In this document: positions 45,433-58,936 of the stretch, one piece after another
How the letters are laid out: each line of letters starts with the position of its first letter
How positions within the stretch are numbered: position 1 is the first letter of the stretch
From: Anaerolineae bacterium
GTDB lineage: Bacteria; Chloroflexota; Anaerolineae; Aggregatilineales; UBA2796
Reading direction: 5' to 3'
NCBI GenBank assembly: GCA_019637555.1
Contig: JAHBVK010000037.1
Span: forward strand, 1 to 64,000
Length of the DNA: 64,000 bases
Made by a program: the position numbers and the translations under genes
Notes under the pieces: model-generated
What the model was told of the DNA's origin: nothing
The model's input: only the letters and a program-made list of their open reading frames with translations
Databases searched by the model: none

Positions 45433-45524
45433 AACAAACGGCAGATTTCCAAAACAACAAACCATAGTCATTCAACGTGATAAGTTCATCCAAGACATCA
45501 ACACAACCAGGAGTCAATTCAACA

Positions 45525-46100
45525 ATGTTCAAGTTCAAGACGTTCAACCGCAATGAAAAGGGTCAGGCTGCTCTCGAGACCGCCATCCTCTTGATCGCTT
45601 TCGTAGTGGTCGCCTCGGTATTCGCCTTCGCCATTCTGTCGGCGGGTTCTTCCTCCACTGAAAAAGGTCAGCAGGCTATCTATGCTGGACTAGAAGGCGT
45701 GCAGTCGTCGATGGAGCCTAAGGGTGCAATCGTCGCCAATGGTACAGTCGGCACCAAGGTCGACGACATTCTCGTGACGGTTTCTGTGACCGCCAGTGGT
45801 AATGCGGTTGACCTGACCGACCCCTCTGCGAGCAAGAACGTCGTCGTAATCAACTACCGCGATAACACGCAAACCAAGTCCGATCTGTCGTGGACGGTCG
45901 CTTGGATCGGCAAGAACGATGGCGACAACCTGTTGGAAGCTGGCGAACTGGCTGAAATCAAGGTGAGTCTGAGTGGTCTAACCACGCCGCTGGCTGCCTC
46001 CACCAACTTCACGCTGGAAGTCAAGCCCCCGACCGGTGCAGTGTTGAACATCAACCGCACGACCCCTGCCAAGATTGAAAAGGTAATGGAACTGCGCTAA
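45525..46100 (+). CDS. arlB: Archaellin (archaeal-type flagellin)
   Basis: 191 aa from the ATG at 45525 (AGGAG upstream). The leader MFKFKTFNRNEKG has a class III signal: cleavage after Gly13 leaves mature QAALETAILLIAF... with Glu at +5 and a ~20-residue hydrophobic helix, as in archaellins and type IV pilins. The C-terminal domain is beta-rich (VDDILVTVSVTASGNAVDLTD, ...LVEAGELAEIKV-like, PPTGAVLNINR) with an ELAEI/PPTGA pattern that I associate with archaellins. Followed by two hairpin terminators and then the rest of the arl genes, it is the presumed filament subunit, processed by the peptidase at 53677. Confidence 0.88.
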   Translation: MFKFKTFNRNEKGQAALETAILLIAFVVVASVFAFAILSAGSSSTEKGQQAIYAGLEGVQSSMEPKGAIVANGTVGTKVDDILVTVSVTASGNAVDLTDPSASKNVVVINYRDNTQTKSDLSWTVAWIGKNDGDNLLEAGELAEIKVSLSGLTTPLAASTNFTLEVKPPTGAVLNINRTTPAKIEKVMELR

Positions 46101-46125
46101 GCGCGACCTTAAGTGTAGCGTCACA

Positions 46126-46152
46126 GGTAGCGGTGGAACTTCTACCGCTACC
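46126..46152 (+). terminator. Hairpin 1 after the archaellin
   Basis: A perfect 9-bp stem GGTAGCGGT/ACCGCTACC with a 9-base loop lies 25 bases after the stop codon. The following tail is only moderately T-rich, so it may be an attenuator or 3' stabiliser. Confidence 0.65.
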
Positions 46153-46222
46153 ACTTCGTTAAAAACCACATGTTCTCCAGATGAGCACGGCCACGCTCAC
46201 CAATATTCATCTCGGTCTTATC

Positions 46223-46240
46223 ACTCCGTTTCGGAGTTTT
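46223..46240 (+). terminator. Small hairpin with T tail
   Basis: ACTCCG-TTT-CGGAGT followed by TTT: a compact stem-loop immediately before the main terminator. Confidence 0.5.
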
Positions 46241-46244
46241 AGAC

Positions 46245-46294
46245 AAGGATGTCCTACCCGACTGGCCGTGCCGGGTAGGATGTCCTTTTTTTTT
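46245..46294 (+). terminator. Strong rho-independent terminator after the archaellin
   Basis: A 16-bp stem (AAGGATGTCCTACCCG with CGGGTAGGATGTCCTT, all paired counting two G-T pairs), an 11-base loop, and a run of about nine T. It should end most archaellin transcripts, giving high filament-subunit and low motor-protein expression. Confidence 0.93.
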
Positions 46295-46379
46295 AAGGCA
46301 AAGAATTGGCATCAGATTAGTCAGTGCAAATAGGTCTACATATCCTGACTGCTAAAGCCTAAGCCGGAGCGCGAACATT

Positions 46380-47375
46380 ATGACTACAGAAGAACGCTTA
46401 CAACTGCTGGAACAAGAAATGCAGTTGCTCAAAAACCAGATACAGGCAGTGCTGCTGGATATTCAGGACCAATTGCTGACCAACGCCTATCCTAGTTTAC
46501 GGACGAGCGGCGGTCCAAGCTTGACTCAGGAAATCTCCATCCATACGGGTGGCGCACCGACGCCCATTCGCTCATTCGGGGTCAATGCCAACGAACTTAC
46601 TTACGACCCCGATATTGCGCAGAATAGTAAGCTGCTGGAATGGCAAAAGCAGCGTGCCGAGCAACCGGGTGAACAGCTCTCAGCACAGCTCCCGGCAGGG
46701 CTAGCACTGGAGCCATCGTCGAGAAGAGTTTCCAAGATGGATGAGAGTGACCAGCTCGAAGCGCCAGCGACATCTGAACTGGCGCTATCTGTGCGCTCGA
46801 ACAATAAGCGGGCGACCAACAACCACAAGGTCGTCGAACCTGAACCAGATGAGTTTGAGGATGAGAACGACGCTAGCGACGACTATGAAGAGAAGCTGAC
46901 CAAGGTCCGCCATCTCAATTGGCACACACTGGAAAGCTGGGTCAATAAGCGCTTGCAAAAACTGGGTCCGGCTCGCACACGAACACTGATCCGCCAGTAC
47001 ACCGCACGGGGTCGCTTCACCTCTGGCATTCAGAGCGCCCTGTTGGAATTGGTTGATGATTGGGCTGCCGATGATGAACCAGATACGGAGCCAGACCAAC
47101 CAACCCGGACGAAACCACCGATCATTACGATACAAGCTGACACGGATGAAGAGGATTTATTACCGCAGGAAGCCGAGATCATATCCGCTTTACAGCGCCT
47201 TGACCTCGGGCAGCCGCCAGCATCCATTGTCGTTGATGTCCCTTCCAAAACCCCGGCAAATCAGAAGATCCTAGATGCTGACGACGATAGACGCGACGTT
47301 GTGGTGAAACTCATCGATGGTTTGCATGGAATGAAGAAAGCTACAAAGCCAACCCGCAGGAGCCACAATGGATAA
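46380..47375 (+). CDS. Archaellum motor-ring protein ArlCDE-like
   Basis: 331 aa. The N-terminal ~35 residues form a coiled coil (ERLQLLEQEMQLLKNQIQAVLLDIQ); a long acidic, low-complexity middle follows. Residues about 175-232 match the FlaD/FlaE domain pattern (LNWHTLESWVNKRLQKLGPARTRTLIRQYTARGRFTSGIQSALLELVDDW). In archaea this domain sits in the cytoplasmic ring around ArlI/ArlH and receives the chemotaxis signal through CheF. No membrane segment is present. The gene overlaps arlG by 8 bases. Assignment rests on this domain and on gene order. Confidence 0.82.
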   Translation: MTTEERLQLLEQEMQLLKNQIQAVLLDIQDQLLTNAYPSLRTSGGPSLTQEISIHTGGAPTPIRSFGVNANELTYDPDIAQNSKLLEWQKQRAEQPGEQLSAQLPAGLALEPSSRRVSKMDESDQLEAPATSELALSVRSNNKRATNNHKVVEPEPDEFEDENDASDDYEEKLTKVRHLNWHTLESWVNKRLQKLGPARTRTLIRQYTARGRFTSGIQSALLELVDDWAADDEPDTEPDQPTRTKPPIITIQADTDEEDLLPQEAEIISALQRLDLGQPPASIVVDVPSKTPANQKILDADDDRRDVVVKLIDGLHGMKKATKPTRRSHNG

Positions 47376-47880
47376 GATCATCACCACCGTTATGTTAATT
47401 GTCATCAGCATGATGATGGCACTATCGCTGTTCAATACGGCGTATCCTGCCGTCATTGAAGGTGCTGATGCGATCTCCAACATGGTCAGCCGTTCGGAAG
47501 ACCGTCTGCGCACCGAGATTGTGATCATTCACACTGCTGGCGAGTTAGATAGTAACGGCGTTTGGCAAGACACCAACGACGATAACGATTTTAATGCCTT
47601 CCTGTGGGTTAAGAATACTGGTTCTACCACGTTAAATGTGATTGCGCAGACTGACCTGTTTTTCGGACCTGAGACCGATTTTGGTCGCATCCCCAATCAG
47701 GCAACGGCTGGCGGCATCTATCCCTATTGGACAGGCGATGTCGAAGGTGGCGGCTCGTGGGTTCCCGGCGCTACCTTGCGGATCACGATTCACTACACAC
47801 TGCCGCTAAGCAGCGGACGCTATTTCGCCAGAGTGACCTTACCGAACGCCGTGAGCGCGTCTATTGTGCTAGGGCTGTGA
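47368..47880 (+). CDS. arlG: Archaellum stator protein ArlG-like
   Basis: 170 aa: an N-terminal TM helix (about 4-24, IITTVMLIVISMMMALSLF), a short linker, TEIVIIHTAGEL, and an Ig-like beta domain ending in a hydrophobic strand (SASIVLGL). This is the layout of archaeal ArlG, which forms a filament outside the membrane and is capped by ArlF. It is coupled to arlCDE by an 8-base overlap and to the next gene by 3 bases. ArlF and ArlG are alike; I call this one ArlG because the next gene carries the wall-binding-type extension. Confidence 0.8.
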   Translation: MDKIITTVMLIVISMMMALSLFNTAYPAVIEGADAISNMVSRSEDRLRTEIVIIHTAGELDSNGVWQDTNDDNDFNAFLWVKNTGSTTLNVIAQTDLFFGPETDFGRIPNQATAGGIYPYWTGDVEGGGSWVPGATLRITIHYTLPLSSGRYFARVTLPNAVSASIVLGL

Positions 47881-47883
47881 ACG

Positions 47884-49026
47884 ATGGAAACAGTGATCAC
47901 CAGCCTAGTCACGCTCTTTCTGTCGCTCTTTGCGGTGATGACTCTAGTCACCGCATCGCTCAGCGCACAGGATGCGATGGGCACGGCGTGGCGGCAGGCG
48001 ATGGATCGGCAAAACGATCAATCCCGCACACTGCTGCAACCAGTTACTGCTGATATCACCGACTCCGGAACAGTTGCCCGGCTGTTGGTGCGTAACACCG
48101 GTGCGAACTCGCTGTCCGATATGGCGCAGTGGGATGTAATCGTCACTTATTATGATGCCGCCATACCCGCGCAGTACCACATTGAGCGCCTCCATTTCTC
48201 TCCCACTGACGCTAACTTTGTCGCTGGAGATTGGCTGGTTGCCGGAATATACCAGCCTGATTTCGAGACACCGGAAGTATTTGGGATCGACATCCTCGAC
48301 ACCGGAGAGACGATTGATCTGTGGCTGAAGTTGAGTAACGCCGTCGGCGCACATCAATCGCTGCGTGCTTCTGTAGCCACCAGTGCTGGTGTAAATGTGC
48401 AACTTGATGCCATGCGTCTACCCCCACAATTGATCAACAATTTCGGTCTGACTCTACCTATGGGTGGCAGCGCCGATATAACTAGTGACGACCTGCAAGC
48501 GGTAGATGCTGACGACGATCCTGCCTCCTTGATCTATCAGGTCACCACCGCGCCCGCACACGGCACGCTCAGTTTGGGAGCAACGTTCACGCAGGCGGAA
48601 ATAGACGCGGGGTTGTTGAAATACACGAATACAGGTTCGGTGAACGACAGCTTCGACTTCACCATCACTGATGGCAAAGATCTCATCGGTCCATTCGTGT
48701 TCACACTTACGGTCAGCGCAGCACCCACAATGACCATAAACAATGGGCTAGCGATCCTCAGCGGCGGCATGGGTGTTATCGACACCGCGCTGCTATCTAC
48801 CGCAGACGCCGATGATACTGATGCCGACTTGGTGTACACCGTTACGGTAGCGCCCAAGCAGGGCATCCTCTCGCTCGGCGAAAGCTTCACGCAAGCGGAT
48901 CTGGCTGCCGGGCTGCTCACTTATCAGCATACAGCGGCTGGTAACGATGTTTTTACCTTCACTATCAGTGATGGCGAAACCACCATCGGACCTTACGCCT
49001 TCCATATTACGGTTCCAGAGGAGTAG
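47884..49026 (+). CDS. arlF: ArlF-like stator protein fused to two CSPG/cadherin-like repeats
   Basis: 380 aa. Residues 1-180 look like ArlF: an N-terminal TM (about 5-27), then a beta domain with RLLVRNTGANSLSDMAQWDVIVTYYD and an ETIDLWLKLSNA strand. Residues about 181-280 and 281-380 are two tandem repeats with ITSDDLQAVDADD or LLSTADADD, APAHGTLSLG or APKQGILSLG, FTQAEIDAGLLKY or FTQADLAAGLLTY, and FTITDG or FTISDG, the pattern of CSPG/cadherin-like adhesion repeats. Archaeal ArlF, usually 150-200 aa, binds the S-layer. Here the added repeats could reach a bacterial wall or S-layer instead. The fusion is unusual. Confidence 0.82.
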   Translation: METVITSLVTLFLSLFAVMTLVTASLSAQDAMGTAWRQAMDRQNDQSRTLLQPVTADITDSGTVARLLVRNTGANSLSDMAQWDVIVTYYDAAIPAQYHIERLHFSPTDANFVAGDWLVAGIYQPDFETPEVFGIDILDTGETIDLWLKLSNAVGAHQSLRASVATSAGVNVQLDAMRLPPQLINNFGLTLPMGGSADITSDDLQAVDADDDPASLIYQVTTAPAHGTLSLGATFTQAEIDAGLLKYTNTGSVNDSFDFTITDGKDLIGPFVFTLTVSAAPTMTINNGLAILSGGMGVIDTALLSTADADDTDADLVYTVTVAPKQGILSLGESFTQADLAAGLLTYQHTAAGNDVFTFTISDGETTIGPYAFHITVPEE

Positions 49027-49033
49027 TGCCATC

Positions 49034-49762
49034 ATGACATCAACTACGTCTGGATCGCCCTTTAGGACTGTGATCTCGACCAAAAACACGGAATTGGATG
49101 CACGACTCGGCGGCGGTGTGCCCATTGGCTCACTGACCCTGATCGAAGGAACGTCCGGTTCCGGCAAATCCGTGTTGTCCCAGCAAATTATCTGGGGCGC
49201 TCTGATGGATGGTTTCATCGTCTCGCTGTTCACAACCGAAAACACGGTCAAGAGTCTGATGCGCCAGATGGAAAGCATTGATCTCGATGTGCGTGACTAT
49301 CTACTACTCTCGCGCTTCAAGGCATTCTCGATTGAGCTATCGCAGTTGGGCGAACGCGCGCCGCAGGCATTGTCGCAAAGTATGCATACCGAATGTAACC
49401 GCCCGCGCCTTGCGCCGAATGTCCTCGTGATTGATTCATTTACCTCCGGACTCACGGACGGTAAGAACCGAGCCGGGATTATCAGCTTCTTCGAGGAATG
49501 TAAACGGCTGTGCGCCAAAGACATTTCCATTTTCGTCACCGTTCACAGTCGTGCCGTCGATGAAGAACTGCTCGACTTGCTGCGCTCTATGAGTGACGCC
49601 AACGTGAAACTGCGTTCCGAGCAGGATGGGCAGCGCTTAGTGAAAGTATTGGAAGTCGGCAAGATACGCGGCGCTGCCAGCACTACGGGGGCGATCGTCG
49701 GCTTCGACGTTGAGCCGGGATGGGGCATGCGCGTCATTCCGATCAGTAAGGCAAGGGGTTAA
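49034..49762 (+). CDS. arlH: Archaellum ATP-binding protein ArlH (KaiC/RecA-like)
   Basis: 242 aa from the ATG at 49034 (AGAGGAG upstream, 7 bases after arlF). KaiC-fold: ELDARLGGGVPIGSLTLIEG leads into Walker A GTSGSGKS (39-46), and Walker B is NVLVIDS. ArlH forms a ring above ArlI and is thought to act as a regulatory ATP-binding switch in assembly and rotation. C-terminal VEPGWGMRVIPISKARG is similar to archaeal ArlH endings. Its presence is one of the strongest arguments against a plain type IV pilus. Confidence 0.9.
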   Translation: MTSTTSGSPFRTVISTKNTELDARLGGGVPIGSLTLIEGTSGSGKSVLSQQIIWGALMDGFIVSLFTTENTVKSLMRQMESIDLDVRDYLLLSRFKAFSIELSQLGERAPQALSQSMHTECNRPRLAPNVLVIDSFTSGLTDGKNRAGIISFFEECKRLCAKDISIFVTVHSRAVDEELLDLLRSMSDANVKLRSEQDGQRLVKVLEVGKIRGAASTTGAIVGFDVEPGWGMRVIPISKARG

Positions 49763-49781
49763 GCGGTAACGCGGAATTACT

Positions 49782-51473
49782 ATGGCTCAGACCGTACTTC
49801 CTTTTCCAGTGGATACCAAACCACAGCTAGACTTAGCGACCTTTGTAGCGAGCTTGCCCGCCGGGTTAAAAGAAGCCGCCGAACAATCGCAATTTCTGGC
49901 GGAATATCTGTTGTATGTGCCCGTTGCAAAGGTCGGCTTTCCTGCCTATCACGCTAAGCCGTCGCGGGCGCTGGCGGATGGACCACGCAACCTGATTTAT
50001 CCCATCAAGGATGGGTTGTTCGTTCACATCTACCCGGATGAATCGGGGGCGCGAGATTATTACATTCCCATTGAGCCAACTACCGTTGCCCCGATTGATC
50101 ATCTGGTAGTCGAAGTGGAATCGCGTCTGGTCGTGTGGGCGGAAGAACTGGGCAGTCTGGACGATAAAGAAGCCAAAAAAGCACTGCTGCTAAAACTGCT
50201 TGATGAAATTTGCACGACGGATCGGCAAACGACTCTGAGCAGTCGAAACAAGCCATCGCGCATCGTCGTTACCCACGCAGAGCTGGAAGCAATTCGCTAT
50301 CGTGTGCTGCGCGATAAAGTAGGCTTGGGCGTCTTGCAGCCACTGCTGCTCGACAATTTCATCGAAGACATCAGTTGCAGTGGTGTAGGTCCCATATTCA
50401 TCGAGCACAAGATCTTCCGCAGCGTACAGTCCTCGATTGTTTTCCCCACACATGAGGATGTGGATGAGTTCGCCGTGTGGTTGGGCGAATGGATCAAGAG
50501 TCCGGTCACAGTGCGTAATCCGCTGGTCGACGCTGTGCTGCCAGATGGTTCCCGTATCAATATCGTTTACGGTGCCGATATTTCCAAACGCGGTAGCAAC
50601 TTCACCATCCGTAAGTTTTCCGGTACGCCTACCAGCGTGCTGGAATTGGTCGAGTTCGGCAGCCTCGATTACACGATGGCAGCGTATCTTTCGATGATGC
50701 TGTCCACAGGCATGAATGTCTTCGTGGTGGGCGCTACAGCCTCCGGTAAGACAACACTGCTAAACGCCATTAATGCCTTCATCAAACCTGATGCCAAGAT
50801 CGTTACGATTGAGGACACTCCGGAAGTTCACGTGCCCCACAAGAATTGGGTACAGGAAGTCACCCGTCCCGGCACTGCCGAGAAAAAAGGTGCCGAGGTT
50901 GGCATGTTCGAGCTGCTGAGAGCCGCGCTGCGTCAGCGCCCTGACCTGATCATCGTGGGTGAAATCCGCAGTATCGAGGCGGTAGTCGCGTTTCAGGCGA
51001 TGCAGACAGGTCACGGCGTCATGTCCACCTTTCACGCTGCTTCAGTGGAAAAGCTGATCCAGCGTTTGACGGGTGACCCGATCAATATTCCCAAGACCTA
51101 TATTGACAACCTGAATCTGGTGATCATTCAGTCCGCGGTGCGTCTTGCTAACGGAAAGGCAGCTCGCCGCGTGTTAAGCGTCAATGAGATCATTGGCTAC
51201 GACCCCATCTCAAACAGTTTTTCATTTCTGGAAGCATTTCGCTGGAACCCGGCAAAAGATGTCTTTGAATTTCCGGGTTACATGAACAGTTATCTGTTAG
51301 AGCAAATCGTCGCCATGAAGCGCGGCATCCCACCGCATCGTCGCAAAGAAGTCTACGACGAAGTAAAACGCCGCGCCAGAATTTTCGAGAAACTACACAA
51401 AGAACAGGGAGTGAGAGAATTCGATGAATTCTTCCGAGTCATCAGCGAAGCCCAACGACAAAAACTCCTTTAA
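49782..51473 (+). CDS. arlI: Archaellum motor ATPase ArlI (secretion ATPase)
   Basis: 563 aa of the GspE/TadA/ArlI ATPase superfamily. N-terminal domain to about 280 includes LQPLLLDNFIEDISCSGVGPIFIEH. Walker A GATASGKTT is at about 316-324, the Asp box TIEDTPEVHVPHKNW follows, Walker B is LIIVGEIRS, and the His box is GHGVMSTFHAAS. DPINIPKTYIDNLNLVIIQ is a stretch close to archaeal ArlI. It powers both filament assembly and rotation. It overlaps arlJ by 50 bases. PilB/TadA reading is excluded by the neighbours ArlH and ArlJ. Confidence 0.93.
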   Translation: MAQTVLPFPVDTKPQLDLATFVASLPAGLKEAAEQSQFLAEYLLYVPVAKVGFPAYHAKPSRALADGPRNLIYPIKDGLFVHIYPDESGARDYYIPIEPTTVAPIDHLVVEVESRLVVWAEELGSLDDKEAKKALLLKLLDEICTTDRQTTLSSRNKPSRIVVTHAELEAIRYRVLRDKVGLGVLQPLLLDNFIEDISCSGVGPIFIEHKIFRSVQSSIVFPTHEDVDEFAVWLGEWIKSPVTVRNPLVDAVLPDGSRINIVYGADISKRGSNFTIRKFSGTPTSVLELVEFGSLDYTMAAYLSMMLSTGMNVFVVGATASGKTTLLNAINAFIKPDAKIVTIEDTPEVHVPHKNWVQEVTRPGTAEKKGAEVGMFELLRAALRQRPDLIIVGEIRSIEAVVAFQAMQTGHGVMSTFHAASVEKLIQRLTGDPINIPKTYIDNLNLVIIQSAVRLANGKAARRVLSVNEIIGYDPISNSFSFLEAFRWNPAKDVFEFPGYMNSYLLEQIVAMKRGIPPHRRKEVYDEVKRRARIFEKLHKEQGVREFDEFFRVISEAQRQKLL

Positions 51474-52917
51474 GCCGATTTCGGCATTTCACCTGTACTA
51501 CCAGCTTACCTATATGGCAGCGATGGCATCGGCAGGCTTGAGTCGCAGTCGTACCTTTCTGGTGGCAGCCGAGGCGAAGTCGCCCGTTGCCACCTACTTT
51601 GCGGCTATCAATACGCTGGTCACAGAGTTTCGTTACGACTATCCCGAGGCATGCCGCATCGTCGGCAACAAGGCGAAATCGGATAACGTAAAAAGCTTCC
51701 TACTTCGTCTTTCCGACGCGCTGCGCTCCGGTGAACCGCTGGCGGAATTTCTGACCCGCGAAGCTGAAATTCAAGGGCAAGATTACCAGAACGACTACGA
51801 GCGCAATCTGGAAGGTCTCAAGCAGTGGTCGAATGCGTTCTCCTCGATCCTGATGTCAGTGGCGCTGATCATCATCATTCAGATGGTTTCCGGCATGATT
51901 TACTCTACGGAAGCCGGAACGATGGGCGGCATGGTCGTCGCTGGCATTGCTATGAGCGGTTTTGGCGCGTTCGTCATTTATCGTTCCGCCCCGCGCGAGG
52001 TCATGACCGGACGTGCCATAGATGGTTCTCCCGAACAACGTCAGGCGCTGCGATTGATGCGTTTGCTACTCCCCATCGGCGTGATGGCGGGAATGGTCCT
52101 GCGGGTAATCGGGCTGGACTTCAGCTTCGTGCTGATGATCGTTGCTGCCATGCTGCTGCCCATTGGTATCGTCAGCATCCGCAGCGACAAAAAGGTGATC
52201 AAAAAGGATGTGGAGTTCAGCACCTTTCTGCGATCAGCAGGCGGTATGGCGACTTCTAGCGGTACTACCGTCAAGCAGGCGCTTACGCGCATCGACCTGA
52301 CTTCGTTCCCCGTACTGGAAGGCGATATTGACCGCCTGAGTAAGCGGTTGCAAGCCCGTGTTGAGCCAGAAATATGCTGGCGTCTTTTCGGTACGGAAAG
52401 TGGCAGCCGTTTAATCAATGAAGTTGTCGATATTTTCTACGGCGCGATCAAAATGGGCGGCGATCCGGAAAAAGTTGGCTATGTATGCTCGCTATTCGTA
52501 GCGCGTACTACCGCGCTGCGCTCCAAACGACGCCTGACTGCCAGCACCTTCGCTGGATTAGCCACCGTGATGGAAACAGTCGCCGCGGGATTGCTCGTGT
52601 TCGTGCTGTCGATCATCAACAGTTTCGCCATCATGGTGGAAAAAGTGATGCCCAAGAACACAGACGCCCTCTCCAGCGCGCCGCAAATGAGTCTGAGTAT
52701 GGGGCAGTTTTCGCCGTCCGATCTTCAGTTCCTGCAATTCGTCACCATCCTGATGGTGCTCTCCATCATCGCAGTGGGAGCAGCCGCGATCCTGGCGTGT
52801 ACAGGCGGCTTGAAGCTGAAGTACTTCTTCTATCTGTCTCTCGGGCTGTTCATTGCGGGCGTTAGCATGTTGATAGTGCCGCCGATGGTTGCCAGCTTGT
52901 TGAAAGTGAACGCCTGA
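51424..52917 (+). CDS. arlJ: Archaellum platform membrane protein ArlJ
   Basis: 497 aa polytopic protein. ISAFHLYYQLTYMAAMASAG near the N-terminus and the later STFLRSAGGMATSSGTTVKQAL belong to the cytoplasmic T2SSF-like loops; hydrophobic helices occur at about 135-185, 215-255 and three more at the C-terminus. ArlJ is the sole membrane platform of the archaellum and interacts with ArlI. The start overlaps arlI by 50 bases, but conserved sequence begins within the first 20 residues and GGGAGTGAGAG precedes the ATG, so the overlap looks real. Confidence 0.9.
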   Translation: MNSSESSAKPNDKNSFKPISAFHLYYQLTYMAAMASAGLSRSRTFLVAAEAKSPVATYFAAINTLVTEFRYDYPEACRIVGNKAKSDNVKSFLLRLSDALRSGEPLAEFLTREAEIQGQDYQNDYERNLEGLKQWSNAFSSILMSVALIIIIQMVSGMIYSTEAGTMGGMVVAGIAMSGFGAFVIYRSAPREVMTGRAIDGSPEQRQALRLMRLLLPIGVMAGMVLRVIGLDFSFVLMIVAAMLLPIGIVSIRSDKKVIKKDVEFSTFLRSAGGMATSSGTTVKQALTRIDLTSFPVLEGDIDRLSKRLQARVEPEICWRLFGTESGSRLINEVVDIFYGAIKMGGDPEKVGYVCSLFVARTTALRSKRRLTASTFAGLATVMETVAAGLLVFVLSIINSFAIMVEKVMPKNTDALSSAPQMSLSMGQFSPSDLQFLQFVTILMVLSIIAVGAAAILACTGGLKLKYFFYLSLGLFIAGVSMLIVPPMVASLLKVNA

Positions 52918-52945
52918 CGGCGAGGATAAGTAAGGAAACGACGCC

Positions 52946-53680
52946 ATGCAATCATTTCTGAACCTGATCGCAAATAACCGCCTCATTCTCATCGCACTGG
53001 GGTTCACAGTGCTGTTGATTGTGCTTGCCATCGGGGTAGAAGTGGTACCGCGCATCATGACGGCTCAGGCGAAACGTGCAAAAGCGCAGCAAGCAGCACG
53101 CGAAGCCAAAAAAGCGGCGGAAGCAGCAGCGCGCGCCGCCGCCGAGGCAGAAGCCAAAGAAGCGGCAGAAGCGGAAGCCGCACGAACGCCATTTGTTACG
53201 GAAACAGGCAAGAAGAAAAAATCACGATCCAAAAAGGATCGTGGATCAGAGAAGGAAAAAGTCTTACCGTTCACGCTGCCGCTTGCTGGGACGGAGACCG
53301 AAGCCGCCAAAGCAGCCATCGGTGGATCAGAAAATGCGGAAGCCGCTACAGTTCAACCAGCCTCTGCTGACACGGTGGCAGCGACGGCACCCGCAGCGAC
53401 AGATCCAGCAGCGGCAGCGCCCGCGCCTGCACAAGCAGCAGCGTCACCAACTGATAAACCGGACGCAGCCAAATCAGCAGCGACGGCAGGTGATGCTATC
53501 CAATCCATGCTGGAAAATGTGTTTGGTGACGAGACTTCTAATGGTCGCTTTGAGGCGCTGATGCGAAATTGCACGATCGTCGAGGGAAAACAACTGCTGC
53601 AGCAAGCGAATAACGTTGCGCAACAGGTCAATGCACGAATGGGGAAACACGATCCTTCCCCGAAGGAGCCAGTTAAGTGA
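52946..53680 (+). CDS. TM plus Ala-rich coiled-coil protein, possible ArlX analogue
   Basis: 244 aa. One TM helix (about 12-34), then a highly charged Ala/Lys/Glu helix (about 40-85), a Lys-rich stretch (GKKKKSRSKKDRG), a long Ala/Pro/Thr linker and a C-terminal helical part (AIQSMLENVFGDE...). No family recognised. Crenarchaeal ArlX also has an N-terminal TM and a long coiled coil and forms a ring around ArlI; the analogy is structural only. GTG of the following peptidase gene overlaps its stop by 4 bases, tying it to the operon. Confidence 0.7.
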   Translation: MQSFLNLIANNRLILIALGFTVLLIVLAIGVEVVPRIMTAQAKRAKAQQAAREAKKAAEAAARAAAEAEAKEAAEAEAARTPFVTETGKKKKSRSKKDRGSEKEKVLPFTLPLAGTETEAAKAAIGGSENAEAATVQPASADTVAATAPAATDPAAAAPAPAQAAASPTDKPDAAKSAATAGDAIQSMLENVFGDETSNGRFEALMRNCTIVEGKQLLQQANNVAQQVNARMGKHDPSPKEPVK

Positions 53681-54387
53681 TACAGATCGCTATTCTCGCG
53701 GGAGTTGCTCTCGGCTGCGTCCTCAATTGGGCGTCCGACCTCTTACCGCGTTATGCCGTCGAAGGCGTCCGCATGACGCCACTACGTTTTGAGTGTGCGC
53801 TAGCGCGCTTGCCGCGCTGGCTGCTGCACCTGCCTGATTCCAATATACCGGGTCAGTGGTACTGGTTACAGGTAATCACTGAAACAGTCTGCGGTGTGGC
53901 TGTCGGGCTACTTTATGCGCGCTATGGCATCTCGCCAATCGGCGTGCTGCTAATAGTGGGCTTCGCCTACTTCTGGCTAGTCGCGCTCATCGATCTGAAG
54001 TACCAGCTTGTGCTCAACGTGATGACCTATCCGGCTATTCTGGGAACGCTGGCGATCCATCTGTTTGTCTTCAACAGCAATTTTCTTCAGGTCGCGCTTG
54101 GCGGCATTATGGCTTACGGCATCTTTGCCCTGGTCAGCTACCTGCGTCCCGGCGAACTGGGTGGCGGCGATACCAAACTGGCTGCCCTGATCGGCTTGAT
54201 CTTTGGCTTTCCACAGATTCTGATTGCGCTGCTGCTGGGTACAGGGATTGGCGGCGTTCTAACCGTCCTATTCTTCTGGCGGAGGGCGCATGTTGGCAAG
54301 AGTAAAAAGGGGTTCTTTATCCCTTACGCACCCTTCTTATGCTTGGGCGCAATGTTGATCATTCTATATCAGCCGCCGATCATGTAG
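53677..54387 (+). CDS. Prepilin/archaellin peptidase (A24 family)
   Basis: 236 aa, GTG start overlapping the previous stop, AAGGAG upstream. A membrane aspartyl protease: the first catalytic Asp is in ALIDLKYQLVLNVMT and the second in GELGGGDTKLAALIGL (the GxGD-type motif here GGGD). About six to eight hydrophobic helices are present. The N-terminal methylase-type cysteine region of long PilD proteins is absent. It probably removes the KG| leader from the archaellin at 45525, performing the ArlK/PibD role, even though its sequence looks bacterial. Confidence 0.9.
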   Translation: MIQIAILAGVALGCVLNWASDLLPRYAVEGVRMTPLRFECALARLPRWLLHLPDSNIPGQWYWLQVITETVCGVAVGLLYARYGISPIGVLLIVGFAYFWLVALIDLKYQLVLNVMTYPAILGTLAIHLFVFNSNFLQVALGGIMAYGIFALVSYLRPGELGGGDTKLAALIGLIFGFPQILIALLLGTGIGGVLTVLFFWRRAHVGKSKKGFFIPYAPFLCLGAMLIILYQPPIM

Positions 54388-54408
54388 TGAGGCGGAAAGA
54401 GTTTGCAC

Positions 54409-55077
54409 ATGTCTTCGATACCACTATCACCAACCAATATTGAACCTGCGCCGGACACGCAGGATCTGCCGAATGGCGCGGAAACAACTGCCACGCCGAC
54501 GCGCAAACGCCGCACCGGGCTGACGATTATGCTGATTGTCATTGCCCTTGGCACCCTGCTCTTCGCGCAGCTCGCTTTGGGTACGACGATGGAGCAAGAT
54601 GGGCAGGCGCTGCAAACGCAGGCGGCAGGCTTAGCGGCTACACTGACCGCCACACCGACGGTTGATCCCGAAGAAGCAGCCCTGTTCAAAGAATTGCAGG
54701 ACATCAGAGCGCAGGCGGAAGCTTTGGGCAACCTTCAGGGGACGTTCACCGCTGCTTACGTCAACTGGCCCGCGGTGATGGCGACTCTTGGCGGCTACGA
54801 TCCCAACCAGATGATGCTCACGGCGCTGGCACAAAATGGCAGCAGCATCCAGATACAAGGACGGGCGAACAGCGAAGCGGTCGTGATGTTATACGCCGAT
54901 GCGCTGCGCGGAACCAGCCTGTTTTCCCGCGTGACTGTGCAGACGATCAGCATCCGGAACTATCCCACGCCGACCAGTGCGCCGGATGCAGCGACGATGG
55001 TAGCAACAGGGACACTCGAAGTGCGTAAGTATGCCGAGTTCTCCGTTCTGGTTGATCTGAAAGGGCAGTCACAATGA
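54409..55077 (+). CDS. PilN-like membrane protein
   Basis: 222 aa from the ATG at 54409 (GGCGGAAAGAG upstream). A cytoplasmic N-terminus with Thr/Pro residues, one TM (about 35-57, TGLTIMLIVIALGTLLFAQL), a coil and a domain with SIQIQGRANSEAVVMLYADALRGTSLFSRVTVQTISI, which matches the PilN/fimbrial-assembly pattern (a G-x-A sequence and L..S.LF..V). PilN and PilO together form the inner-membrane alignment complex of type IV pili. Here the pair is found in an archaellum cluster that has no PilM, PilP or PilQ. Confidence 0.82.
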   Translation: MSSIPLSPTNIEPAPDTQDLPNGAETTATPTRKRRTGLTIMLIVIALGTLLFAQLALGTTMEQDGQALQTQAAGLAATLTATPTVDPEEAALFKELQDIRAQAEALGNLQGTFTAAYVNWPAVMATLGGYDPNQMMLTALAQNGSSIQIQGRANSEAVVMLYADALRGTSLFSRVTVQTISIRNYPTPTSAPDAATMVATGTLEVRKYAEFSVLVDLKGQSQ

Positions 55078-56696
55078 CACTCCTCACCAATCTACTCAAC
55101 CGCTTACGCAACCTGCTGCCCGTGTTTCTGCTTTTGTCGTTGGTCATGGCTAACTTACTGCTGTTCGTCAAATCGGTATTGGCTGGCTGGCAGCAATACG
55201 AATCGTTGACACTGGAAGTACAGCAGAGTCAGGATGCCATCAGTACCCGCAGTGCCTACGATCCAGCCGAGTCGTTGATCATCGGACAGAGTCGTTTGGA
55301 AAGCGCACAAGCCGATCTTGCCACTGTTTCCAGCAGCTTCATCACCAAATCGCAGGCGAACGATTTCCTGTCTCGCCTATATCTGGTCGCTGATGCGGTG
55401 GATGTCGTCATCGCTCAATTGCAAGAGGTCAGTAATCAGCCCGCGGATCTGAGCGCTGAGGTCACGGCTGTGCCCACCGATGACAACTATGAAGTACGCA
55501 ACTTCCAGATCAAGGTAAATGGCGGCATTCAACAATTGATGACCTTCGTCACCCATCTGCGTGAAGCTGGTGTATCCAGCATCCGCCTGAGTGATATCAA
55601 GCTTGTTGCCGTCGAAAGCAGTCAGGCAGTAGCGACGACGGAACTTACTACCGCTTATGCGCTGACGATGACGATTACGCTGTATCAGGCTTCCGCCGCT
55701 TCGGGTGATGCCTACCTGAATCCCCCATCGTTTGCCATGCCAACGGCGGTGCCTACCTTCACACCATCACCGACACCGACGATTACGCCGACGATCCCAC
55801 CAACCATGACGGCGACTATCACACCGACCACCGTCATCACCTATACACCGACAGCCACGGCGACGCTGACCGAAACGCCGACACCGACGGAGACCACAGT
55901 ACCGCCTACGGCGACAGCCACTGCCACTGTCACGGAATATCCCTCGCCAACGCCGCTGTATCTCTTCCCGACGGCGACTCCTGAGATATCAGAAACGCCA
56001 GCAGAGGCAGCCTTAACCGCTACAGAAACAGAAACGCCAATTCCGGCAGGTCAGTGTGTTAAGCCGACTACCGAGAACATGTCGCGCCTCTATTTTGGAC
56101 AGCAGCAGGAAGCCTTTGCCAGTTGCGCGATCCAGGCATGGACCTTCGTGCTAGATCAGGACTACACCTTCCTGTTTGAGGTACAGCGCAATTCCGGCGA
56201 TGGCATTTTCCGGCTAGAACTGCACGATGCTAACGATCAGGTGATCGCCAAAGTCCCCAGCACAGCGGAGGGACGCGGCATCTTGGCGACGCAGGCGGGA
56301 GCGGGCGACTACACACTGTACGTTATTCCGCTGCAAGCGACGATGCCCTGGACATATTCGATCACCATCTGGCGGGGTGTACCAACGCTGGCGATTGCTG
56401 TACCCCAAAACGGCTACAGCAGTCAAAACGAAATGGCTTTAGAACCACAATTGACGGTGTGGTCCTATACACTTAGAGGAGGACTGCAAACCTACCGTCT
56501 AAGCGTAACTCGCACCAGTGGCGATCTTGAATTTGAACTCGCGGTGGTCGATGCGCAGGGCACGCAGTTAACCCTTGTGACCAGCCGTGACGGAGTAGCT
56601 TTCGTCACCCTGACCAATGCACCCGGCACGTATATGGTGCAAATCAGAGCGCTAAATGGCAGCCACGGATCGTACGTTGTGGTGCTGGAAGAATAG
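55074..56696 (+). CDS. PilO-like protein with Thr/Pro stalk and two PPC-like domains
   Basis: 540 aa. Residues 1-210 look like PilO: one TM (about 15-38), a coil (QQYESLTLEVQQSQDA...), and a domain ending FQIKVNGGIQQLMTFVTHLREAGVSSIRLSDIKL. Residues 225-330 are a Thr/Pro-rich stalk. The remainder holds two PPC-like beta domains (about 350-440 and 450-540: FLFEVQRNSGDGIFRLELHD and YRLSVTRTSGDLEFELAVVD). ATGA overlap with the PilN-like gene shows coupling. The extension would project through the envelope, so it may tie the alignment complex to the wall or an S-layer. The fusion is unusual for PilO. Confidence 0.8.
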   Translation: MTLLTNLLNRLRNLLPVFLLLSLVMANLLLFVKSVLAGWQQYESLTLEVQQSQDAISTRSAYDPAESLIIGQSRLESAQADLATVSSSFITKSQANDFLSRLYLVADAVDVVIAQLQEVSNQPADLSAEVTAVPTDDNYEVRNFQIKVNGGIQQLMTFVTHLREAGVSSIRLSDIKLVAVESSQAVATTELTTAYALTMTITLYQASAASGDAYLNPPSFAMPTAVPTFTPSPTPTITPTIPPTMTATITPTTVITYTPTATATLTETPTPTETTVPPTATATATVTEYPSPTPLYLFPTATPEISETPAEAALTATETETPIPAGQCVKPTTENMSRLYFGQQQEAFASCAIQAWTFVLDQDYTFLFEVQRNSGDGIFRLELHDANDQVIAKVPSTAEGRGILATQAGAGDYTLYVIPLQATMPWTYSITIWRGVPTLAIAVPQNGYSSQNEMALEPQLTVWSYTLRGGLQTYRLSVTRTSGDLEFELAVVDAQGTQLTLVTSRDGVAFVTLTNAPGTYMVQIRALNGSHGSYVVVLEE

Positions 56697-56716: not shown

Positions 56717-58936
56717 ATGAGGACGATGCAGAGTTTACGTGAACCCATCAAACCACTGGAAAACCGGGTAGCTGCCCGGTTAGTGGCGTTGATCGGTGGA
56801 CTGCTGACGATAGCGGTAGTGCTGTTGCACCTAACTGTCATCGTCGTCAGTTCACAGAGTGGTCAGCACGTAACGGCTGCCTCTGCTCTCGTACTGCTTG
56901 TGTTCGATACCCTGCTCATCAGTGCACTTATGCTAAGCCTGCTGGTCGGGGTCGTGAACTACCTGCAAAAGCAACCAGCATCACCCATTCAGTCAACACC
57001 GATTGCTGTCGTTCCAGCCATGCAGTCTGAGGTACAACCGCACATCCCGACGGATTGTAATCCTCTCCCGTACATTCCCCATTCTCCTGCGGTCGTCTGT
57101 ACGCTGGCAGTCGCACCGGATCAGCTTCCTAGAATGATCCACATCGGTATGGAGGCGGAGCACATTTTCGGTTATCCGCCCTTAGCGTGGACGGCGAATA
57201 ACGAAAATGGGCAGTGGTACACACACCTTCATCTGGATGATCGCGCCCGTGTACTGGAACAGGTAAATTCCAGCCGGAACGAGCCGTTCCGCTGCCAGTA
57301 CCGACTGATCACAGCAAATAAGGAAACAGTTTGGGTCGATCACATTGGCAAGGTGGTGCCTGATTCTGATCAGCATTTTCACATCGACGGGATCATGATC
57401 GACATCACTGCTCACAAAGCTGCTGAGGCGGAACTGAGCTTCTATCAGGATCAATTGCGACAGTTGATCGAGCGTAGCCCGCAAGAGCGGTCTACCAGCG
57501 AAATGCCACAGGTTACCAGCGGTATCTTTACCACGAATCGCGATGGTCAGTTTACCTATGTCGATTCAGCGTTCGCGCGGATGCTCAACAATCAGCCCTC
57601 CAGATTGATCATGCGCCATTGCAGTGACATCGCGGTGCCTGATTGGCGTCCGAGCCTGCGGGCGCAATTGGAGCACCAGTTCGCATCGCACACCCTTGAA
57701 TTGGGACTGGAGTTCCCGATTGAGACGCATACCGGACAGTATCGCTGGGTGCAACTGCTCAGCACGCTAGTGCTGGATGGTGAGCAGCCTGTCGGCTTGC
57801 ACGGCATCATTTACGATACCACCATGCGCAAAATTGCCAGTGAAGTGGTGCGTGAAAGCGAACGTAAGTTGCAGCGCATCACTGACACGATGACGGACGT
57901 AATTGTGCAGATTGATACTGAAGGGATTGTGCGTTACGCCAGCCCATCCAGCCGCAATACCTTTGGCTACGATCCCGAAGCGCTAGAAAACAGTGCTTTC
58001 ACGCAGTTCGTCCACCCCGATGATGCAGCCTTCGTAGCGGCGGCGTTGCAGGGAACTTTTGCCGATGCCGAACGGATCGAGTGTCGCTATCGTGTCGGTG
58101 ATGGTAGCTACATCTGGCTCGAAGCCATCGGCAATCTGTTGTTCAACGATGAAGGCAATCTTGAGGGGTTGATTTGTGGTTGCCGTAACATTACCGAGCG
58201 CAAGCAAGCTGAGCAAGAACTGAGCGAACTCAATCGGCTGAAGTCCGAATTCCTATCCACTGCTGCGCACGAACTACGCACGCCACTGACCACTATTCAC
58301 GGTTTCAGCGAACTACTGATGCTGCCGCAGATCAAAGCAGATGCAGCGCGTCACGATCACTTCATTCAATTGATTCACGAGCAATCCACGTTTCTGGCAT
58401 TGCTCATCGACGATCTGCTTGATCTATCACGCCTGGAAGCAAAGCGCCAACTCAAGTTATCCCTTGAAGCGGTACGTATGACTGAATTGATTGATGAAGT
58501 GGCATTGCCCTTCGTCGAATCTTCCACCGAGCATCATATCGAGATCGTCCATGAAATTGGCGACAGCGTAGTAATGGGTGATCCGCTGCGCCTGATTCAG
58601 GTTGTTCGCAATCTCATTTCCAACGCAGTCAAATACTCTCCGACTGGTGGCGATATTCTGATCAGCACTCAGGTCGTTGGAGACATGATGCACATCAGCG
58701 TCCAAGATCACGGGATCGGGCTGAAACTGGAAGACATGGGACACCTTTTCGAAAAGTTCTATCGCGTGAACACCTCCAATACCGCAGTCGGTGGTACTGG
58801 ACTAGGGTTAGCGATAAGCAAACTGATTGTAGAACTGCATCACGGCAATATCGAAGTGACCAGTGAATTCGGAGTAGGCAGCACCTTCACGGTGATCCTG
58901 CCGCTGTATAGAGCGACTCCGGAACCAACTCCTTAA
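56717..58936 (+). CDS. Membrane sensor histidine kinase with PAS domains
   Basis: 739 aa. Two TM helices (about 20-45 and 50-75), then PAS domains at about 125-235, 260-365 and 385-500. Dimerisation/phospho-acceptor domain: STAAHELRTPLTTIHGF with His518. The catalytic ATPase domain has N box NLISNAVKYSP, G1 DHGIGLK and G2 GTGLGLAISK. It starts 20 bases after the PilO-like gene. With the CheY-like protein three genes downstream, it is a candidate input for the archaellum, though this is inferred from position only. Confidence 0.93.
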   Translation: MRTMQSLREPIKPLENRVAARLVALIGGLLTIAVVLLHLTVIVVSSQSGQHVTAASALVLLVFDTLLISALMLSLLVGVVNYLQKQPASPIQSTPIAVVPAMQSEVQPHIPTDCNPLPYIPHSPAVVCTLAVAPDQLPRMIHIGMEAEHIFGYPPLAWTANNENGQWYTHLHLDDRARVLEQVNSSRNEPFRCQYRLITANKETVWVDHIGKVVPDSDQHFHIDGIMIDITAHKAAEAELSFYQDQLRQLIERSPQERSTSEMPQVTSGIFTTNRDGQFTYVDSAFARMLNNQPSRLIMRHCSDIAVPDWRPSLRAQLEHQFASHTLELGLEFPIETHTGQYRWVQLLSTLVLDGEQPVGLHGIIYDTTMRKIASEVVRESERKLQRITDTMTDVIVQIDTEGIVRYASPSSRNTFGYDPEALENSAFTQFVHPDDAAFVAAALQGTFADAERIECRYRVGDGSYIWLEAIGNLLFNDEGNLEGLICGCRNITERKQAEQELSELNRLKSEFLSTAAHELRTPLTTIHGFSELLMLPQIKADAARHDHFIQLIHEQSTFLALLIDDLLDLSRLEAKRQLKLSLEAVRMTELIDEVALPFVESSTEHHIEIVHEIGDSVVMGDPLRLIQVVRNLISNAVKYSPTGGDILISTQVVGDMMHISVQDHGIGLKLEDMGHLFEKFYRVNTSNTAVGGTGLGLAISKLIVELHHGNIEVTSEFGVGSTFTVILPLYRATPEPTP

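Follow-up and report, generated by a model that had tools for sequence, protein, structure and literature searches.

The window, a stretch of 64,000 nucleotides, is part of a 6.5 Mb genome of Chloroflexota type, and the archaellum loci closest to its own come from Anaerolineae MAGs. On the plus strand it carries an unbroken run of genes (45477-56696) in the order arlB-CDE-G-F-H-I-J-coil-A24-pilN-pilO, mostly with short gaps or overlaps between neighbors, and downstream of pilO lie two PAS sensor kinases and a receiver protein. The features, with the evidence for each, are as follows.

45477..46100, +, arlB, archaellin (PF01917, E 6.9e-23)
46380..47375, +, arlC/D/E-like gene (no Pfam match; position and profile conserved among relatives)
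47368..47880, +, arlG (weak PF01917 match, conserved profile)
47884..49026, +, arlF with two C-terminal cadherin-like repeats (Cadherin_3, E 2.2e-43; N-terminal profile common to arlF and arlG)
49016..49762, +, arlH (KaiC-type ATPase, PF06745, E 1.5e-17; position conserved)
49782..51473, +, arlI, motor ATPase (up to 75% identity to ArlI from other Anaerolineae archaellum loci)
51424..52917, +, arlJ, membrane platform (T2SSF, PF00482, E 7.3e-11; conserved)
52946..53680, +, membrane-anchored coil protein (after arlJ in relatives too; no confident family)
53677..54387, +, A24 prepilin peptidase (PF01478, E 4.7e-14; same place in many relatives)
54409..55077, +, PilN (PF05137, E 1.3e-8, residues 124-184)
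55074..55703, +, PilO-type N-terminal domain (AF2 model, pLDDT 84; best PDB match PilO; orthologues match PF04350)
about 55707..56048, +, Thr/Pro-rich stalk of the PilO-type protein (read from the sequence)
56052..56375, +, first PPC-like beta-sandwich domain (model residues 1-108; Z 13.1-14.6 against collagenase PPC/collagen-binding domains)
56376..56696, +, second PPC-like domain (resemblance by eye, from sequence)
56717..58936, +, PAS sensor histidine kinase (HisKA and HATPase_c; 20 bp 3' of pilO)

We take the arlC/D/E-like gene to be such from its ArlD/E-like C-terminus and otherwise from its position. The segment from arlB to arlJ (45477-52917) contains arlB, the arlG-arlF order and contiguous arlH-I-J, and is thus an archaellum locus of the arl2 type as defined in PMC12488501. 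The cadherin-like repeats on arlF form an unusual, surface-reaching extension of this stator protein. Scans found no promoter-like site on the plus strand (6 in all, 11.9 expected) and 22 terminator-like sites (15.5 expected, sd 3.8), many of them intragenic, and neither scan splits the run. A first-pass annotation of this DNA had described pilN and pilO as embedded in the archaellum operon; the pair is contiguous with the run, but it lies at the 3' end and sensor kinases begin 20 bp later, the first of which is possibly co-transcribed with the run.

Two further genes of the run merit comment. The A24 prepilin peptidase of the window lies within the run, immediately 5' of pilN, as does that of many Anaerolineae loci, whereas the 2025 description of the Litorilinea aerophila system places the peptidase outside the archaellum locus (PMC12488501). 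The small, Lys/Ala-rich, membrane-anchored coil protein is encoded after arlJ in almost every Anaerolineae locus, with weaker matches at that place in Dehalococcoidia, and is possibly a further part of the archaellum.

The PilN and PilO-type proteins

The two genes overlap by the four letters ATGA (pilN, ATG at 54409 and stop at 55077; pilO, ATG at 55074 and stop at 56696), confirming the coordinates and the coupling first proposed for 54409-56696. PilN, the only copy in the genome by our search, has a short cytoplasmic tail, one TM helix and a PilN domain that scores 35.2 bits against PF05137 (curated cut-off 22.8), so that the earlier domain call is sound; a PilN profile searched against PDB sequences weakly matched PilN of the pilus model 3jc8 (E 0.0026). 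PilM-PilN structures place PilM binding in a motif of the LNILP/LNLLP type in the PilN tail. Within the class, the motif LN[IL]LP occurs in the N-terminal tails of 4/4 PilM-linked PilN proteins, a small set, and of 0/27 archaellum-linked ones; a search of the window PilN tail found no INLLP-type motif. Binding of PilM by the PilN N-terminus is also described in PMC13319060. Long PilN tails in many archaellum- and pilus-linked relatives bear PPC-like "DxYEPDD" repeats, recognized as a motif and given no family name by Pfam.

The window PilO-type protein, searched whole, matched no Pfam family. Since whole-protein searches are swamped by Thr/Pro stalks, PilO searches used the N-terminal domain only. 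The AF2 model of this domain (pLDDT 84) has a TM helix, a coiled coil and a ferredoxin-like core, as in solved PilO. Its best PDB match is Pseudomonas PilO (2rjz_A; Z 13.1, 120 residues, rmsd 6.8), 5uvr also matches (Z 10.8, rmsd 3.8 over 93 residues), and Foldseek returned 2rjz_A (E 5.6e-5) and 3jc8_Oa (E 1.7e-5), with PilO ranking above the M/L domains of type II secretion, which have a related fold. Among 17 orthologous domains, six match PF04350 at E < 0.1 (best 6.7e-6), and that of one locus (L143) clears the family cut-off (22.5 against 22); the PilO-domain profile A1 gave nothing useful against PDB sequences. Supported by the predicted fold and by relatives matching PF04350, 55074-56696 is assigned to a PilO-type protein, as the first-pass annotation had suggested. 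Across relatives, both PilN and PilO keep open frames and conserved cores at about 20-35% identity.

Beyond this domain the protein continues into a Thr/Pro stalk, plain in the sequence as noted before, and then into the outer region, for which two PPC-like domains had been claimed. The first is upheld by its modeled fold, which matches 3jqw_A (Z 14.6, rmsd 2.4 over 105 residues) and 5sv5 (Z 13.1, rmsd 2.1 over 99 residues); the second is a resemblance seen by eye in the sequence, its model being unreliable (pLDDT < 40). Pfam found no match, PPC included, in 56052-56693 alone or in the whole protein. The C-termini of PilO relatives beyond the conserved domain have nothing in common: among 15 searched with Pfam, six carry LysM, three TPR and two weak lectin-like matches, and the others none, so that the outer part may be LysM, TPR, lectin-like, PPC (as in the window) or a stalk only. 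SH3-like heads suspected by eye in three loci (L041, L043 and L045) had no Pfam support and were dropped. LysM binds peptidoglycan, whereas the ligands of PPC domains are varied; the six LysM heads therefore point to peptidoglycan and are the best hint that the task of the head concerns the cell wall, while wall binding by the PPC heads does not follow from their fold.

Distribution of the pair and separation from type IV pili

To follow the pair across the class, we crossed an ArlJ search (22 genomes) with a PilO-domain profile (39 genomes, E 1e-5) in a sample of 396 genomes. All 22 ArlJ genomes have PilO; so does G006, which has ArlI at a contig edge and which we count as the 23rd archaellum-bearing genome. 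PilO is thus present in 23/23 archaellum-bearing genomes, spread over 13 families, against 16/373 others (Fisher p 3e-27, a value that overstates independence as the genomes are related). Within the window's own taxonomic order, the figures are 3/3 archaellum-bearing genomes and 0/34 others.

The pair adjoins arl genes in 17 of the 23 genomes, and in 16 no more than about 8 kb of one contig separates it from arlJ; in G184 it adjoins a second archaellin gene, 27 kb from arlJ, in G052 the coil gene and then pilN run into a contig end, in G257 coil-A24-pilN-pilO occupy one small contig, and in four genomes (G006, G063, G237 and G087) pair and archaellum are split over contigs or unlinked. Of 80 named archaellum loci, fetched with ArlI, 17 bear the pair 0.8-4.2 kb after arlJ; their titles name Anaerolineae, Caldilineaceae, Aquidulcis or simply Chloroflexota. 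The order arlJ-coil-(kinase)-A24-pilN-pilO is largely kept in these 17 loci besides the window. PilN and PilO overlap or are at most about 50 bp apart. Given the co-occurrence of 23/23 against 16/373, the place of the pair beside the archaellum is not due to chance. The alternative that the first-pass annotation named as refuting its reading, a pair found mainly beside complete pilus operons elsewhere, is not borne out: it adjoins arl genes, and true pilus loci of the same class have their own pilN, pilO and pilM, together with an A24 peptidase and a pilus ATPase. In one genome (G134) the archaellum-linked and pilus sets are both present, at different places.

The PilO tree separates the two settings to a large extent. 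The archaellum label requires 9 changes on the tree against 18.3 when shuffled, and the PilM-linked (pilus) label 4 against 9.4; each setting is clustered and neither forms a single clade, since G087 and a handful of stand-alone pairs fall among the archaellum-type sequences. In G087 the only PilO found is of the archaellum-linked type; its neighbors are pilM and a pilus ATPase gene, and pilN is not recognizable there (L157, 7930-12210).

The window genome itself bears out the earlier remark that PilM and PilQ are absent. A PF11104 search gave one match, rejected as PilM because the protein is FtsA, and a PF00263 search for the secretin PilQ gave none, with control genomes positive. The missing pilM gene and the motif-less PilN tail are consistent with loss of the cytoplasmic PilM layer. 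The pair had been interpreted as a hybrid alignment complex: that it belongs with the archaellum rather than with a type IV pilus is supported, but alignment to an outer-membrane pore cannot be its function in a genome without a secretin, and "anchor or collar" fits better than "alignment".

The pair has been added in one class and is not something that bacterial archaella need in general. Among the 80 ArlI-fetched loci, 36 that extend 5 kb or more downstream have no pair after arlJ; they comprise loci of Dehalococcoidia/SAR202 or other Chloroflexota and of archaea, and L047 (the locus of G184). The flanks of the Dehalococcoidia/SAR202 archaella lack the pair, so that a bacterial archaellum as such can do without it, and of three archaellated genomes outside the class in a phylum sample, two have no PilO match and one a marginal match 106 kb from arlJ. 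Conversely, archaellum-type PilO occurs in about nine genomes without a detected archaellum, mostly as stand-alone pairs. Five stand-alone pilN-pilO loci (L159, L160, L161, L166 and L210), most from genomes without detected ArlJ, encode PilN with a long PPC-like tail and have neither arl nor pil genes in their vicinity.

Possible roles and known systems

That archaella do not use PilN and PilO, as the first-pass annotation stated, holds for archaea; in bacteria, the same pair was reported in 2025 next to the archaellum of Litorilinea aerophila (PMC12488501), and in 2026 PilN and a PilO-LysM protein were proposed as a scaffold guiding that archaellum through peptidoglycan (PMC13319060). The co-location and the wall-scaffold hypothesis are thus already published for Litorilinea, where the two proteins, the setting and the proposed role are the same and pilM, pilP and pilQ are likewise missing. 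In the window the pair differs in lying at the 3' end of the run and in having PPC rather than LysM on PilO; L143 (genome G170) fits the Litorilinea description, with TPR and two LysM on PilO and the pair upstream of arlB. Two further systems are comparable. Monoderm type IVa PilMNO of the Streptococcus sanguinis type also has PilN and PilO without PilP and PilQ, and its PilO is likewise large, with an added C-terminal region for which crossing or binding of the wall has been suggested (PMC6916266), but the window lacks PilM and the PilM-binding tail of PilN and its motor is ArlI/ArlJ. In Campylobacterota, PilMNO has been exapted as an FcpMNO cage round the flagellar motor, likewise a pilus scaffold on a different rotary motor recognized by strict co-occurrence; FcpM is kept there, and the portion of that account available to us describes no stalk or wall-binding heads (PMC11870540). 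This cage and the large monoderm PilO make recruitment of a pilus scaffold plausible.

Gene order, co-occurrence, domain identities, the missing PilM, secretin and motif, and the exchange of heads are read directly from sequence, and we propose, with a probability of about 0.6, that PilN and PilO form a scaffold that is accessory to the bacterial archaellum and dedicated to it, and that probably holds the archaeal motor in the bacterial cell wall. Each protein has one TM helix, and their periplasmic ferredoxin-like domains would pair and surround the base of ArlI, ArlJ, ArlF and ArlG at the cytoplasmic membrane as a ring or cage; the heterodimers and the ring are modeled on PilN/PilO of pili, and contact with the archaellum base is our extension of that model. 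The PilM layer would have been dropped, in keeping with the absent gene and motif. The Thr/Pro stalk of PilO would place the PPC domains outward, where they may bind a wall or sheath polymer, as the LysM cases and the published precedent suggest; heads so bound would let the stationary portion of the motor resist torque and would maintain the path of the filament across the wall. In relatives the PPC head is replaced by LysM, TPR, a lectin-like fold or the stalk alone. The fuller picture, in which the Anaerolineae archaellum has an extra, fixed, PilM-free PilN/PilO ring taken from a bacterial pilus, with heads exchanged by lineage to fit the wall or sheath, we advance tentatively, giving it somewhat less than an even chance. 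Counting against a scaffold are the Dehalococcoidia/SAR202 archaella that lack the pair, the varied ligands of PPC domains, the roughly nine archaellum-less genomes with archaellum-type PilO, the G087 PilO beside pilM, and the low expression of the pair by qRT-PCR in Litorilinea (PMC12488501).

The pair could instead act in assembly rather than anchoring, as a PilM-free part of the platform that stabilizes ArlJ/ArlI and aids filament assembly, with the outer heads secondary. Monoderms, which have no secretin, still require PilMNO to assemble their pili (PMC6916266), a PilO-platform contact has been reported for pili (as cited in PMC13319060), and the A24 peptidase lies immediately 5' of pilN, but no such pair accompanies the archaella of archaea and Dehalococcoidia, and the exchange of wall-type heads such as LysM hints at work on the wall; we regard assembly in place of anchoring as unlikely. 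Less likely still is that the pair serves another filament (a Tad or minor pilus, or the presentation of an adhesin at the cell surface) and is simply carried along with the arl genes. The stand-alone pairs would suit such a role, as would a second, putatively Tad-like ATPase in the window genome (36% identity to ArlI), yet co-occurrence is complete and adjacency is conserved over 13 families, and we know of no use of PilN/PilO by Tad systems. That the archaellum genes were inserted into a former pilMNO locus, of which the pair is a functionless remnant, would agree with the absence of PilM and secretin from the genome, but the open frames and conserved cores in all relatives, the repeated replacement of heads, which is not decay, and the large separation of archaellum and pilus settings in the PilO tree make this very improbable.

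For the scaffold proposal, the results extend the Litorilinea work in several ways. A BLASTP survey with Litorilinea proteins found the pair in 34/235 (PMC13319060), and the resulting picture of a minority trait among archaellated Chloroflexota is revised by a profile search and a split by class, as every archaellated genome in our class sample has PilO. New are this near-obligate presence in one class and the absence near Dehalococcoidia and archaeal archaella, the loss of PilM together with its binding motif, the range of heads, PPC among them, found in addition to LysM, and the location of the prepilin peptidase within the run. They bear on how an archaeal rotary motor works within a peptidoglycan-bearing bacterium, for which the near-obligate, PilM-free pair with its exchangeable heads supplies named candidate proteins and a candidate domain. 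If the ring is real, an imported motor would have been fitted to different bacterial envelopes by the change of one domain, and there would be a second example of a rotary motor that has taken over scaffold proteins from a pilus, the first being the flagellar cage of Campylobacterota.

Archaellum loci of relatives also vary in their other genes. In one (L036, 13710-15413) an FHA-GAF histidine kinase stands between the coil gene and the prepilin peptidase, where several of its relatives have a gap of similar size and where the window, unlike L036, has no kinase. Elsewhere, arlH is duplicated in one locus (L053, 8171-9993) and arlI in three (L092, L093 and L096).
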